Of a stretch of 10,830 nucleotides of DNA, positions 405-6,538 are shown piece after piece. The position numbers and the translations under genes are program-made. How positions within the stretch are numbered: the stretch's first letter is position 1; each line of letters begins with the position of its first letter. The notes below the pieces were generated by a model. It was not told where the DNA came from, searched no databases, and saw only the letters and a list, made by a program, of their open reading frames with translations. The stretch comes from a bacterium (GTDB taxonomy: Bacteria > UBP15 > UBA6099 > DSWB01). Location of the stretch: contig JAGUYV010000038.1 of assembly GCA_020061125.1 (NCBI GenBank), forward strand, positions 1 to 10,830, written 5' to 3'.

Positions 405-431
405 AAAGGGCGGCAACCGCGGGCTTTGTTT
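405..431. terminator. Candidate weak bidirectional terminator between convergent genes
   Basis: AAAG (405-408) can pair with CTTT (424-427) around an inner GCGG-CAA-CCGC hairpin (410-420), with a small asymmetric internal loop. On + it is followed by GTTT. It sits exactly between two convergent stop codons. The stem is imperfect and the T-run short, so this is tentative. Confidence 0.35.
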
Positions 432-858
432 ACTTCTCCCCGGCTTCGCCCACAAACGGTTCGAGCCGTGGTTTGAGCGTTTCCCACTGCGCGGCGATGC
501 CTGCAAATGCGCCGGGGTGCTCATCGTATCCGAATCCGCCCAGTTGCGCATATAAATCCCCAAGCTCGATCACGAGTTTGTGCAGTTCCGCGCCCTGGCG
601 CGCGCTGGAATACCGGGGTTTCTGCTCCGCCAGCGCCTTCATGAACGCGTCCAGCGCTTCGGACAGCTCATCCGCAAAACCCATGTCCGCAGCCTCGCCG
701 CTTGCTGCAATCTGCATGAGGCTGTCAACCTTCTGATAGGCTTGCACCACAGCGGGATCGGGCGGAACCTGTTTTCTGAAAATGCACGACGGGCATGTCA
801 GAGCAACCATGAGCAAAAGCAAAGCGCGGAATGCAGATCCGGGATAAAGGGTCTTCAT
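430..858 (-). CDS. Small putative lipoprotein, function unknown
   Basis: The protein has 142 residues from the chosen start. An upstream in-frame ATG at 867 would add three residues, but it has GAAAG immediately before it. That GAAAG sits about 9 bases before the ATG at 858, a normal ribosome-site distance. The N-terminus has a short basic region, a hydrophobic stretch (ALLLLMVALT) and then PSC followed by a charged mature part. This is lipobox-like, although -3 is Cys, so lipidation is likely rather than certain. The mature part is helical and rich in Ala, Glu and Leu, with no catalytic motif that I recognise (for example VVQAYQKVDSLMQIAASGEA). The gene starts 20 bases after the ZIP transporter stop on the same strand, so the two are probably co-transcribed. 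It might be a periplasmic partner of that transporter, but this is only context. Confidence 0.72.
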   Translation of the reverse strand: MKTLYPGSAFRALLLLMVALTCPSCIFRKQVPPDPAVVQAYQKVDSLMQIAASGEAADMGFADELSEALDAFMKALAEQKPRYSSARQGAELHKLVIELGDLYAQLGGFGYDEHPGAFAGIAAQWETLKPRLEPFVGEAGEK

Positions 859-878
859 GGAAATCATCTTTCGGCAAT

Positions 879-2183
879 TTACGCCATGGCGCGGAACATG
901 AGCGCGGACAGGAACCCGAACACGGTCAGGATGCCCACCAGCCAGCCGCCGTGCTCATAAGCTTCGGGCAGCATGGTCTGCGCGATCATCGCCAGCATGG
1001 CGCCCGCGGCCAGGCCCTCGACAACCGCGTGCAAATGGTGCGGCACGGCATGGAATGTGACATTGCCGATGAGCGCTCCAATGCCTGTCAGGATGCACAG
1101 CGACATCCACATCCAGAAAATCTTGCCTGTGGAATGCCCCTGCTTTTTCATCATGGCGCCGCTGGACATGGCCTCGGGCAGGTTGGCGAAGAACAGGCCG
1201 CCGATGAGCGCGGGACTCACGGCCTTGCCGATCATGCTCGCGCCGATGACCAGGGACTCGGGAATGCCGTCCAGAAAGATGCCGAGCCACATGGACAGGG
1301 CTGCGTTGCCGCCGCCTTCTTTGTGCATGACTTCGGACATCTCGGCAGCGGACGGGCGCACATCTTCTTCGTGAATGTTTTTGATGGCGATGCTTTTCCA
1401 CTCTTGCGCGTCCATCAAGCCCATGGCCTGATTGCCCGCCCTGCGCTCGCCGGCCAGTTTGGTCACGGCATCGCGCAGCCGCGGCAGGGACGCTGTCAGG
1501 GCGGAGAAATCCTGGGCGTGGATTTCCCAGACCATGGTGTCCTCGAGGCATTCCACGGTAGCCGAGCGCGGCTCGTTCCATAGAAGCGCCATTTCGCCGA
1601 AAGTTTGCCCGTCCTCGAGTTCGGATATGGTTTTCTGATCGCCGCCCGTGTCCGCGGTCTGCACGCGCACCCGGCCGTTTTCGATGATGTACAGGGAGGT
1701 GGCGGGATCGCCCTGGCGGAAGACGATGTCCCCGGTCTTGAAGAACCGCTCAACGATGCTGGGCACGATGTGGTGCATGTCCTCGGGCGGCAGGGCGCGC
1801 AGGATGTCCACCTGGCTCAATTTGCTTAGCAGCGCCTGCATCTTCTCGCGCTTGTGCTTTTTGATGTGAGCGACCAGGGTCGAGGCTTTGCGCAGATAGC
1901 CGCCGCTGTTTTCCAGCGCGGCGTTGAGTCCCACGAAGACCAGGCCCCCGAGCACGCAGCCGATGCTTATGGGCCAGAAGCCTTGATGTACGAACGCAGG
2001 CTCGATTAGCTCGAGGGTGAGGGCGGACAGCAGGTTGCCCGCGCCGAACGCCATGAGCGCCGCCACGATGCGCGCCGACGGCTTGAGCCAGATGCCCAGC
2101 ATGGAGCCGAGCGGCAGGGACACCGCGGTGAACGCCCCGAACCAGAACGCCATCATATACGGCCTTGTCAGAAATTCCAGCAT
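879..2183 (-). CDS. ZIP-family metal transporter with inserted cyclic-nucleotide-binding domain
   Basis: The protein has 434 residues; the start is chosen because AAGGAG lies 7-8 bases upstream of ATG 2183 and the membrane protein begins right there. Three hydrophobic segments (about 9-30, 37-60 and 70-90) are followed by a complete cNMP-binding domain (about 120-245) and then five more (about 295-317, 322-345, 355-376, 384-403, 412-432). That is the eight-helix ZIP plan with the regulatory domain in the TM3-TM4 loop, which is cytosolic in ZIP proteins. ZIP signature helices are TM4 DGIPESLVIG (305-314) and TM5 ANLPEAMSSG (333-342). The canonical TM4 His-Asn is replaced by Asp305-Gly306. A His cluster lies at 378-385. 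The cNMP domain has GDIVFRQGDPATSLYIIENG (151-170) and an intact phosphate-binding cassette FGEMALLWNEPRSATV (195-210), with Glu197 and Arg206 in the ligand-contact positions known from PKA and CRP. Metal specificity and transport direction are unknown. It is divergent from the MBL-cNMP gene. Confidence 0.9.
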   Translation of the reverse strand: MLEFLTRPYMMAFWFGAFTAVSLPLGSMLGIWLKPSARIVAALMAFGAGNLLSALTLELIEPAFVHQGFWPISIGCVLGGLVFVGLNAALENSGGYLRKASTLVAHIKKHKREKMQALLSKLSQVDILRALPPEDMHHIVPSIVERFFKTGDIVFRQGDPATSLYIIENGRVRVQTADTGGDQKTISELEDGQTFGEMALLWNEPRSATVECLEDTMVWEIHAQDFSALTASLPRLRDAVTKLAGERRAGNQAMGLMDAQEWKSIAIKNIHEEDVRPSAAEMSEVMHKEGGGNAALSMWLGIFLDGIPESLVIGASMIGKAVSPALIGGLFFANLPEAMSSGAMMKKQGHSTGKIFWMWMSLCILTGIGALIGNVTFHAVPHHLHAVVEGLAAGAMLAMIAQTMLPEAYEHGGWLVGILTVFGFLSALMFRAMA

Positions 2184-2211
2184 AATATGCTCCTTGATAA
2201 AAATCAGATCA

Positions 2212-2420: not shown

Positions 2421-2492
2421 GGCCGTGCTGTAGCTGTACATCACAATCCTTTCCGGGCATCCGGCCCGTCATGCTGCGCCAGAGGTGGGTTC

Positions 2493-4688
2493 ATGCGAAA
2501 AATCACGGTTTCCACGGGCATTTACTGGGTCGAGATACCCGGCGCCGGGCTGCGCATCCTGTGCGGGTGCCCCGCGGATGCGGTCAAGCACCTCATGCGC
2601 CGCGGCCTCATTGTGACCATGGAGAAAAACGGCGTCACCTATGAGAGCGGCCCCAACGCCATTCTTCTCTCGGATGTGCCCCTTCAGAATGAGCGCTTCT
2701 CCAACCTGGGCGAGTTCCCGGTGCTGCAGATGTTGTACCGTCAGGGCATGATCCTGCCGGGGCATCCCAACAACACCGGCGCGCGGCCCATGCTCATCGG
2801 CGCTCGAGACCAGGTCGAGGCCCAGTCCCAGTACATTTTCCGCGGCAACTACGGGCTTGCGGACATCGCGGAACTCGAGGCCGCGGGCGAGAGTCCCGAA
2901 TCCGCCCGCGAGATGATGCGCCTCAAGCTCCGGTTTGCGTTCAACAAAATCAAGGCCACGGACGAATTGCTGGACATGCGCGTGGTGGGAGATGAATCCG
3001 TGGAACTCGCGCCCGGCGCATTCGTTCGCCGCAAGGCGCTGAACATTTACGAGTTCATGCACAATGACGAGCGCGTGACCGTGGACCTCAACCTGGCGCC
3101 GGGACAGGACTACGATCCTCCCTACAACCTCGGGTTCCATGAATTGCGGCGCGATTATTTCAGCGTGGTGCACAGCGGCGAGGGAGACGGCTGGGACCTG
3201 AACCGCCCGTGCATGGGCAGCATCATCACCTTCCAGGGCAAGATTTTCCTGATTGACGCAGGCCCGAACCTGGTGCACAGCCTCACCGCGCTCGGCATCA
3301 GCGTGAACGAAATCGAGGGCGTGTTCCACACCCACGCGCATGATGATCATTTCAACGGCATGACCGTGCTGCTGCGTGCGGACCACCGCATCAAGTATTA
3401 CGCTACCCCCTTGGTGCGCGCGTCCGTGGAAAAAAAGCTCTCCGCCCTGCTCCACATGAAACAGGGCGCATTCGACCGTTACTTCGAGGTGCATGAACTT
3501 ACTGAAGGACAATGGAACGATGTGGACGGCCTCGAGGTCTTGCCCGCCAATTCCCCGCACCCGGTCGAGACCACCATCATGTTCTTCCGCGCCCTGTGGG
3601 AGGACGGTTTCAAAACTTACGCGCACATGGCCGACATCGCCGCATTCGATGTGCTCAAAAAAATGATCACGGACGACCCGGCCGCCAGCGGCGTCTCGCA
3701 GGAATATTTCGACGCTGTGCGCGCTCTCTACCTCACACCCGTGGATCTCAAGAAAATTGACTGCGGCGGCGGCCTCATCCACGGCAAGCCCGAGGATTTC
3801 GCCGCCGACGGATCCGGCAAAATCATCATCAGCCACTCGGCTCTGCCATTCAAGGATTCACAGCTCGAGATCGGCGCCACCGCGTCCTTCGGCGCGGCCG
3901 ACATTCTCATTCGCGCGGATCAGGATTACACCAAGCCCGCGGCTTTCAGCCACCTGCGCGAGTATTTTCCCGCCGTGCCCCTGCATGAACTGCGCATGCT
4001 CCTGAACTGTCCCACGGCCGTGTTCAACCCCGGCTCGATCCTGGTCAAGCGCGGCGAGCACAACGGCAACATTTACTTCGTGCTGTCCGGGGTCATGGAC
4101 CTCATCCTGTCGTCCGCGGGCATCCACAACCGGTTGAGCGTCGGTTCCATGGCCGGAGAACTGTCCGGGGTCATGGACACGGAATCGCGCGGCACTTATG
4201 TGGCCCGAAGCGTGGTGCGCGCCATCTCCATCCCCAGCGGCCTGTACCGCGCATTTCTCGAACGCAACGGACTCATGGACGATCTCAAGGGCAGCCTGTC
4301 CATGCGCCGTTATCTGCAGAGCACCTGGCTGTTCGGCGAAATGCTCGGCTGCCCCCTCAAGAGCCGCATCGTGAAAAGCTCCACGCCTTTTTCCGCGCAT
4401 CCCGGCGAGCGCTTCCATAGCAAGGGCGGCGACGAGCTGTTCCTTATACGCGAGGGCGAGGCCGAGGTGGTGTGCGACGATGTGTCCGTAAGCAAAATCG
4501 GCCCCTCGGAATTCTTCGGCGCGGAACATATTCTGTTCGGCGAAGAGAGACGCATGCACGCCCGCGCCATCACCGCAGTCCAGGGGTTCCGCATCCCGGC
4601 CAGCGCCCTCGAAGGCATTCCCATTGTGCACTGGAAACTGCTCGAAACCTATGAAAAACGATTGCGCGGCGCGCATCTGCCCGAATAA
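2493..4688 (+). CDS. Metallo-beta-lactamase-fold hydrolase with two C-terminal cNMP-binding domains; possible cyclic-nucleotide phosphodiesterase
   Basis: The protein has 731 residues and starts at ATG 2493, preceded by GAGGTG at about 5 bases. The open frame runs on upstream to 2304, but without ribosome site or conserved look. Residues 1-165 form an N-terminal region (GIYWVEIPGAGLRILCGCPA) that I associate with a little-studied family named as cAMP/cGMP-dependent phosphodiesterases; this is from memory and unverified. Residues about 220-480 are the MBL domain: THAHDDH (280-286, giving His281, His283, Asp285, His286), then His356, Asp381 and His448 as the further metal ligands. Two CRP-like domains follow. 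In the first (about 500-600), Glu556 and Arg566 lie in a phosphate-binding-cassette position. In the second (about 620-715) the cassette is altered (FFGAEHILFGEERR). No signal peptide is seen, so it is cytosolic. It is divergent from the cNMP-ZIP gene and 21 bases from the SMP-30-like gene downstream. Hydrolysis of cyclic nucleotides is inference. Confidence 0.85.
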   Translation: MRKITVSTGIYWVEIPGAGLRILCGCPADAVKHLMRRGLIVTMEKNGVTYESGPNAILLSDVPLQNERFSNLGEFPVLQMLYRQGMILPGHPNNTGARPMLIGARDQVEAQSQYIFRGNYGLADIAELEAAGESPESAREMMRLKLRFAFNKIKATDELLDMRVVGDESVELAPGAFVRRKALNIYEFMHNDERVTVDLNLAPGQDYDPPYNLGFHELRRDYFSVVHSGEGDGWDLNRPCMGSIITFQGKIFLIDAGPNLVHSLTALGISVNEIEGVFHTHAHDDHFNGMTVLLRADHRIKYYATPLVRASVEKKLSALLHMKQGAFDRYFEVHELTEGQWNDVDGLEVLPANSPHPVETTIMFFRALWEDGFKTYAHMADIAAFDVLKKMITDDPAASGVSQEYFDAVRALYLTPVDLKKIDCGGGLIHGKPEDFAADGSGKIIISHSALPFKDSQLEIGATASFGAADILIRADQDYTKPAAFSHLREYFPAVPLHELRMLLNCPTAVFNPGSILVKRGEHNGNIYFVLSGVMDLILSSAGIHNRLSVGSMAGELSGVMDTESRGTYVARSVVRAISIPSGLYRAFLERNGLMDDLKGSLSMRRYLQSTWLFGEMLGCPLKSRIVKSSTPFSAHPGERFHSKGGDELFLIREGEAEVVCDDVSVSKIGPSEFFGAEHILFGEERRMHARAITAVQGFRIPASALEGIPIVHWKLLETYEKRLRGAHLPE

Positions 4689-5692: not shown

Positions 5693-6538
5693 ATGTCCTT
5701 GAGAGTCTGCGTTCTGGGAAGCGGGAGCCGGGGCAACTGCACCCTGGTGCAAAGCGAGCACACCAATCTGCTCATAGACGCCGCACGGCTGGGAAGAAAA
5801 TACATCGCCGGGGAGCTTGAATCCCTGGATGTGTCCCTGGACGGCATCCACGGCATCGTGGCCACGCACATCCACGGCGACCATGTGGACTCCGGCACCA
5901 CCGCCGCCATCTGTCACATGCACGACATCCCCCTTTTCACACACTACGATTCCTACCCCGACCTGCTGCGCCGCTCGCCCAAATTCGAAGCCCTCAAGCG
6001 CGCGGGCCTGGTGCGCCTGTTCGATTTCGCCCCGTTCGCCGTGGGCGAACTCACCGTAACCCCGTTCCCCGTGACCCACGGCGGCGAATTCGGCAACGAC
6101 ATCGTGGGCCGCCCCGTGGGCTACACCATCGAGCAGCACAACGGCGGCGCGCCCCGCAAAGTCGGTTACACCACGGATCTGGGCCATGTGGACGGGCACA
6201 TCGCGGACCGCCTGGCCGGGTCCCAGTGCATCGTCATGGAGTGCAATCACGATGTCGAGGCCGAGCGCAACAGCACGCGCCCCTATTTCCTGGTGCGATG
6301 GGTGCTCGGCCCGCGCGGGCATTTGAGCAACGACCAGTGCGGCCACGCCCTGCGCGGCATCGCCAAACGCAGCAGCGGCGCCCTCAAAAACATCGTGCTC
6401 GCGCACTTGAGCGAAGATTGCAACTCCCCGGATCTCGCGCTCAACACCGTGCGCGCGCACCTCGAACAGGACGGACTCTCCCACATCCCCCTTCATGTGG
6501 CCATGCAGAGGCAGCGCACGGAAATCATCGAGTTGTAG
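5693..6538 (+). CDS. YycJ/WalJ-like metallo-beta-lactamase-fold hydrolase
   Basis: The protein has 281 residues, about the family's usual length. It opens with VCVLGSGSRGNCTLV, the N-terminal signature of the YycJ/WalJ group of MBL-fold hydrolases, followed by LLIDA. Metal-binding motifs are all present: ATHIHGDH (57-64), THGGEF (His129), TDLGHV (Asp162), ECNHD (His186), GHLSN (His210) and LAHLSEDCN (His238). It has no signal peptide and is cytosolic. Family members are predicted phosphoesterases or nucleases; YycJ/WalJ is linked to DNA replication and cell-wall control in Firmicutes, but the role here is unknown. The ribosome site is weak (GGGAAAG about 11 bases upstream). The zinc-finger gene follows after 26 bases. 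It is a different MBL subfamily from the 2493-4688 protein and not a close duplicate. Confidence 0.88.
   Translation: MSLRVCVLGSGSRGNCTLVQSEHTNLLIDAARLGRKYIAGELESLDVSLDGIHGIVATHIHGDHVDSGTTAAICHMHDIPLFTHYDSYPDLLRRSPKFEALKRAGLVRLFDFAPFAVGELTVTPFPVTHGGEFGNDIVGRPVGYTIEQHNGGAPRKVGYTTDLGHVDGHIADRLAGSQCIVMECNHDVEAERNSTRPYFLVRWVLGPRGHLSNDQCGHALRGIAKRSSGALKNIVLAHLSEDCNSPDLALNTVRAHLEQDGLSHIPLHVAMQRQRTEIIEL

Follow-up and report, generated by a model that had tools for sequence, protein, structure and literature searches.

A divergent ZIP-fold protein with a cyclic nucleotide-binding domain between TM3 and TM4: a putative cNMP-regulated transporter from a patchily distributed bacterial family

Among proteins with the ZIP fold, BbZIP from Bordetella bronchiseptica (PDB 5TSA/7Z6M/8GHT) is an elevator in which TM2, TM3, TM7, and TM8 constitute a static dimeric scaffold and TM1, TM4, TM5, and TM6 slide by about 8 Å (PMC9873690). 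Its TM3-TM4 loop, the relevant segment of which is short (residues 146-166), acts as an intracellular zinc sensor that restrains uptake (PMC10256678). Cyclic nucleotide-binding domains (CNBDs) are found in MlotiK1, SthK, and HCN2 at the C-terminus, behind a tetrameric channel pore. The purine is contacted by R632 in HCN2 and R418 in SthK, and the pairs R591-R632 and R377-R418 are each spaced by 41 residues (PMC4308110). Direct cyclic-nucleotide gating of a secondary transporter is established for SLC9C1, the sperm Na+/H+ exchanger, where the shift of activation caused by cAMP disappears when a CNBD arginine is mutated (PMC6052114). As a secondary transporter with an attached CNBD, this exchanger is the nearest functional parallel to the protein described here; it differs by its NHE fold, its C-terminal CNBD plus voltage sensor, and its eukaryotic origin, and no homology of the transporter parts is claimed.

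The window (the whole stretch of DNA that was analysed, 10,830 nucleotides) encodes a protein, here denoted CNBD-ZIP, that according to domain search and structural modelling is a divergent ZIP fold with a full CNBD between TM3 and TM4. We know of no bacterial secondary transporter directly gated by a cyclic nucleotide. The open-access literature yielded no such bacterial example and no published description of a cNMP domain within a ZIP protein. A sequence-only reading of the window had proposed the order TM1-3, complete CNBD, TM4-8 in a single frame without frameshift, leaving the strand unstated. The frame is indeed unbroken from 2183 to 879 on the minus strand, and the residue numbering of that reading, FGEMALLWNEPRSATV with E197 and R206, is correct. 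An alternative in-frame start at 2237 would give a longer protein; the ATG at 2183 is preferred because it is the start of the homologues and has AAGGAG at 2195-2190 just upstream. The gene is laid out as follows:

879-2183, minus strand: CNBD-ZIP coding sequence, 434 aa, ATG at 2183, stop at 879-881
2190-2195, minus strand: likely ribosome-binding site AAGGAG, read from the sequence just upstream of the ATG
1908-2162, minus strand: TM1-TM3 of the ZIP fold, residues 8-92, followed by a conserved GGYLRK motif (model helices; BbZIP match)
1431-1850, minus strand: inserted CNBD, residues 112-251, in the TM3-TM4 loop (PF00027; structural matches)
1320-1412, minus strand: two linker helices from the CNBD to TM4, residues 258-288 (model helices), a proposed coupling element
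888-1310, minus strand: TM4-TM8 of the ZIP fold, residues 292-432 (profile match to BbZIP)

In Pfam, cNMP_binding (PF00027) matches residues 146-230 (E 5.8e-25) and Zip (PF02535) residues 270-424 (E 6e-9), the latter with 36.0 bits, only just above its gathering cut-off of 35.1 bits, under which several relatives fall. An AlphaFold2 model was built from 40 family members (mean pLDDT 89.6; model residue numbers are the protein numbers minus one). The best eight entries for this model in VIA-align were all BbZIP (Z 23-25), e.g. 7z6m with Z 24.8 and an rmsd of 2.4 Å over 225 residues for model residues 6-432, and model residues 102-251 matched the CNBDs of AKT1, SthK, CRP, PKA, and MlotiK1 (Z 16-17). 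Among the matches listed by plain Foldseek, only CNBDs and CNBD-channels appear; the ZIP match is seen in VIA-align and not there because the CNBD fills the list. Searched against the PDB at E <= 1, a TM4-TM8 profile found BbZIP entries only (best E 5e-9). Pfam domains and structural model agree on the proposed architecture, and both fold match and Pfam threshold place the protein in the ZIP (SLC39/PF02535) fold superfamily. It is not a cyclic-nucleotide-gated ion channel, which has a tetrameric pore N-terminal to the CNBD, whereas here the CNBD is internal and the transmembrane part has the ZIP fold. With BbZIP it shares the whole fold, elevator scaffold and transport helices, and a presumably regulatory TM3-TM4 loop, but this loop is formed by the CNBD. 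Right after TM3 the sequence has eight K/R against a single D/E, and K/R are absent from the short TM2-3, TM6-7, and TM7-8 loops; these charges fit a TM3-TM4 loop on the cytosolic side, as in BbZIP, and support the cytosolic placement of the CNBD in the sequence-only reading.

Relatives of CNBD-ZIP occur in three species of the same order (69-70% identity) and in two distant genomes (45-47%). A scan of the genomes of 84,980 species with just two short patterns yielded 53 loci, 49 of which were kept after one locus with a CNBD match only (L080), two fragments, and one frame-broken copy had been left out. Together with the window and four members from a profile search, they make up the family studied here (n=54). 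It extends over at least 11 named phyla (Pseudomonadota, Myxococcota, Spirochaetota, Delongiibacteriota, Planctomycetota, Bacteroidota, Calditrichota, Electryoneota, Armatimonadota, Latescibacterota, and Chlorobiota) plus unnamed lineages, and is patchy within phyla. The profile search covered a spread sample of 290 genomes with the TM4-8 region: all ten matches above 200 bits lie in frames of at least 432 aa with a CNBD, two matches near 120 bits are CNBD-less proteins of 263-274 aa with the same motifs, and canonical ZIPs reach at most 55 bits. No CNBD-ZIP match was found in the viral contigs searched, and plasmid records contained no full-length relative, the ZIP-type matches examined being CNBD-less proteins with the TM4 motif DGIPES. 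In the copy from Candidatus Scalindua rubra (L079:4001-5388), matches cover residues 1-433 and the frame from the match start is full of stops, which suggests a frameshift or an assembly error.

In a maximum-likelihood tree calculated from transmembrane columns only (the CNBD was not used), the CNBD-bearing proteins form one clade (94/90) and the CNBD-less DGIPES proteins another (97/91), with canonical ZIPs outside. These sisters share the TM4/TM5/TM7 motifs DGIPES, SN.PEG, and TM.PEA with CNBD-ZIP, but have no CNBD and a TM3-TM4 loop of just 13-20 aa, compared with 184-201 aa in the members and 372-377 aa in forms with a tandem CNBD. The insert site is identical in 54/54 members. Because the CNBD-bearing proteins are monophyletic, with the CNBD-less DGIPES clade outside, a single insertion explains the data. 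A chimera, chance fusion, or assembly artefact was considered and ruled out, the same architecture being present in 54 homologues of one clade.

Two features define the ligand pocket of this member:

1557-1601, minus strand: phosphate-binding cassette FGEMALLWNEPRSAT, residues 195-209 (E197, R206, A208), aligned to MlotiK1 with R206 at R307
1443-1445, minus strand: R247, C-helix arginine, aligned to MlotiK1 R348, HCN2 R632, and SthK R418

The intact cassette noticed in the sequence-only reading is borne out by the alignment to MlotiK1, and R247, unmentioned there, is present as well. R206 and R247 are 41 residues apart, which is also the alignment-derived R307-R348 spacing of MlotiK1 (R348 being numbered from a PDB chain alignment and a review's table). 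CNBD-ZIP hence has in common with MlotiK1, SthK, and HCN2 what marks a ligand-competent PF00027 domain: the CNBD fold, a cassette of the form FGE...PR.A, and a purine-binding C-helix arginine 41 residues later. R206 is followed by S in this member and by T in most relatives. It is very unlikely that this CNBD senses another small ligand, or that cNMP regulates only in trans, because no canonical cNMP contact tested is missing and the spacing is that of HCN2/SthK/MlotiK1. Degenerate clades of the family lend this alternative some ground: since their fold persists without R206 or R247, other ligands are likely for them.

Across the family, E197 and R206 are kept in 28/54 members, termed intact, while R206 is lost in 26/54, where it is replaced by A/P (Lysobacterales), A/I/S/L (Bacteroidota), H (a SAR86-like group), or N/H/S (tandem forms). 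The tandem forms (L070, L075, L076, L077, and L078), with a double CNBD in an insert of about 375 aa, constitute one clade (99/92) in which all cassettes are destroyed. R247 is R in 28/28 intact versus 4/26 degenerate members, shows the strongest association with R206 among all 434 columns, and is spaced by 41 from R206 in 27/28 intact members. On the CNBD-free tree R206 was lost four times, and R247 in three of these losses, always with R206 and never alone; with four independent losses, a paired (sign) test cannot reach significance. Only R206, A208, and R247 of the 13 insert columns conserved to at least 90% in intact members collapse in degenerate ones, and the fold glycines and W262 are retained. 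Selection for nucleotide binding in the intact group, together with loss of binding but not of the domain in the others, would produce such a pattern. The CNBDs without R206 would so have another ligand or none, and, as about half of the members lack the ligand residues, cNMP gating is not family-wide judging from these residues. Of the direct cAMP/cGMP gating postulated in the sequence-only reading, the ligand residues stand for this member, a general property of the family does not, and gating itself is an inference.

What the degenerate members have kept bears on a further interpretation, i.e. that the CNBD serves for structure or docking (as a dimer contact, a partner-binding site, or a fixed brake) and is insensitive to cNMP in the window protein too, with the intact cassette as a residual. 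W262 in the linker helices is invariant (50/50 and 54/54), and CNBD fold and W262 persist in the 26 dead-pocket members, including the tandem duplications, which shows a cNMP-independent role of the insert. A precedent exists in Family 2B encapsulins, shell proteins with a CNBD (PF00027) inserted likewise in a loop of an unrelated fold, whose inserts are reported to bind no cyclic nucleotides (PMC12407261). The encapsulin domains, however, are reported to diverge at the ligand site, unlike that of CNBD-ZIP, and residual conservation does not explain the invariance of E197, R206, and R247 over 28 deeply divergent members. A purely structural module is considered unlikely here.

The transmembrane part carries two motifs in the region of the canonical metal site:

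1254-1271, minus strand: TM4 motif D305-G-I-P-E309-S in place of canonical HNxPEG
1173-1184, minus strand: TM5 motif N334-L-P-E337 in place of QNxPE/QDxPE, aligned to BbZIP Q207-D208-V-P-E211

In the DGIPES superclade, which comprises proteins with and without a CNBD, D305 and E309 are invariant (60/60), N334 is found in 60/60 and E337 in 59/60; R98 and K99 of the GGYLRK motif occur in 60/60 and 57/60, respectively. The canonical ZIP outgroup has H at position 305 in 6/6. The BbZIP site H177/N178/E181/Q207/D208/E211/E240 stands against D305/E309/N334/E337 in CNBD-ZIP: in TM4, H177 corresponds to D305, N178 to G306, and E181 to E309; in TM5, Q207 to A, D208 to N334, and E211 to E337; in TM6 and TM7, E240 to T366 and E276 to T403. 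Compared with canonical zinc ZIPs of the GufA/BbZIP type, TM4 has retained only PE of HNxPEG, TM5 reads A-N-L-P-E, TM6 and TM7 present threonines, and the M2 and egress metal ligands are lost. CNBD-ZIP is not filed with the canonical zinc ZIPs on these residues and is treated as a ZIP-fold elevator with an altered, probably all-oxygen site. The substrate is uncertain because of these alterations; it is probably a divalent cation on the oxygen ligands D305, E309, N334, and E337, with zinc not assured. The label of metal transporter given in the sequence-only reading thus holds for the fold and fails for the canonical ligands (H177D, N178G, Q207A, D208N, E240T, and E276T).

Since most ZIP metal ligands are replaced, transport by CNBD-ZIP is putative. 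The protein might instead be a non-transporting membrane receptor (transceptor), in which binding of metal and cNMP is read by another partner, as could be suspected from the replacement of BbZIP H177, N178, Q207, E240, and E276 throughout the clade. Such a role is rather improbable: D305, E309, N334, and E337 are (nearly) invariant in bacteria and archaea with or without a CNBD, which fits a working altered site, and no partner gene is conserved across clades. The metal site is likewise altered throughout the CNBD-less DGIPES clade of bacteria and haloarchaea (L112-L115, L091, and L092). Its proteins, some on plasmids, are annotated by homology as 'ZIP family zinc transporter' (Deinococcus, Pantoea, and Rhizobium) or as 'hypothetical protein' (Haladaptatus), and the zinc assignment looks unsafe from the site residues.

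A supply of the signal is indicated by six class III cyclase matches in the window's genome. Such a match was detected in 44/50 member genomes and in 24/24 intact members tested. The six genomes without one (L034, L036, and L075-L078) also lack class I and all have degenerate CNBDs (Fisher p 0.023, uncorrected for phylogeny or incomplete genomes, both of which confound cyclase absence at the level of genomes and MAGs); in four of the five tandem-CNBD genomes, no cyclase of class I or III is detectable. In three same-order relatives, a HAMP/class III cyclase gene is the next upstream gene on the same strand (L028:1972-3810, L030:1978-3810, and L029:1977-3791, the last split into two frames), with about 150-200 nt from the cyclase end to the transporter. 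This adjacency is confined to one lineage and is absent at the window itself, where another gene takes the place:

2448-4685, plus strand: divergent neighbour, 746 aa, with a metallo-beta-lactamase (MBL) domain and two cNMP_binding stretches (Pfam)

A second MBL-fold protein is encoded at 5693-6538 and shows a weak Apyc1-like match; both are possible cyclic-nucleotide-related enzymes. About 12 nt past the CNBD-ZIP stop, a small lipoprotein-like ORF (430-867, minus strand, 145 aa, LTCPSC motif) was noticed, which has no Pfam match. No neighbour gene is conserved across CNBD-ZIP clades; conservation is seen only within close clades. On the grounds of the intact E197/R206/R247, their spacing of 41, the joint R206/R247 losses, and the upstream cyclase genes in three relatives, binding of cNMP (cAMP or cGMP) by this member is judged likely.

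Given the BbZIP helix roles and its own position, the insert would bridge the fixed scaffold (TM3) and the moving transport domain (TM4). cAMP (or cGMP) made by class III cyclases would bind the CNBD beta-roll via E197/R206, and R247 would draw the C-helix over the purine as a lid. Movement of the C-helix could then be passed by the linker helices (W262) to TM4, whose motion would lock the elevator or set it free. As for the sign, release of an apo-state brake by cNMP, i.e. activation of uptake, is very slightly favoured over inhibition. Such allosteric control of the elevator by the CNBD is plausible from the residues conserved, and is given somewhat better than even credence. With the same modest confidence, CNBD-ZIP is taken as a divergent ZIP-fold elevator transporter in which a functional CNBD has replaced the TM3-TM4 loop and cNMP regulates a working transporter.

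A broader view is put forward tentatively, at slightly less than even weight: a widespread bacterial solute-carrier family may be directly gated by cAMP/cGMP, with the nucleotide as the clutch that links scaffold and moving half in a ZIP-type elevator whose site is all-oxygen and not of the zinc type, while in several lineages, some without detectable cyclase, the sensor may have lost its ligand or been duplicated into a different regulatory module. If true, bacteria would tune a metal-type transporter by cAMP/cGMP post-translationally, within seconds and without transcription. With ligand-competent and ligand-dead CNBDs on one transporter, plus a CNBD-less sister clade, the family constitutes a natural experiment that lets the structural role of the insert be told apart from its sensing role.
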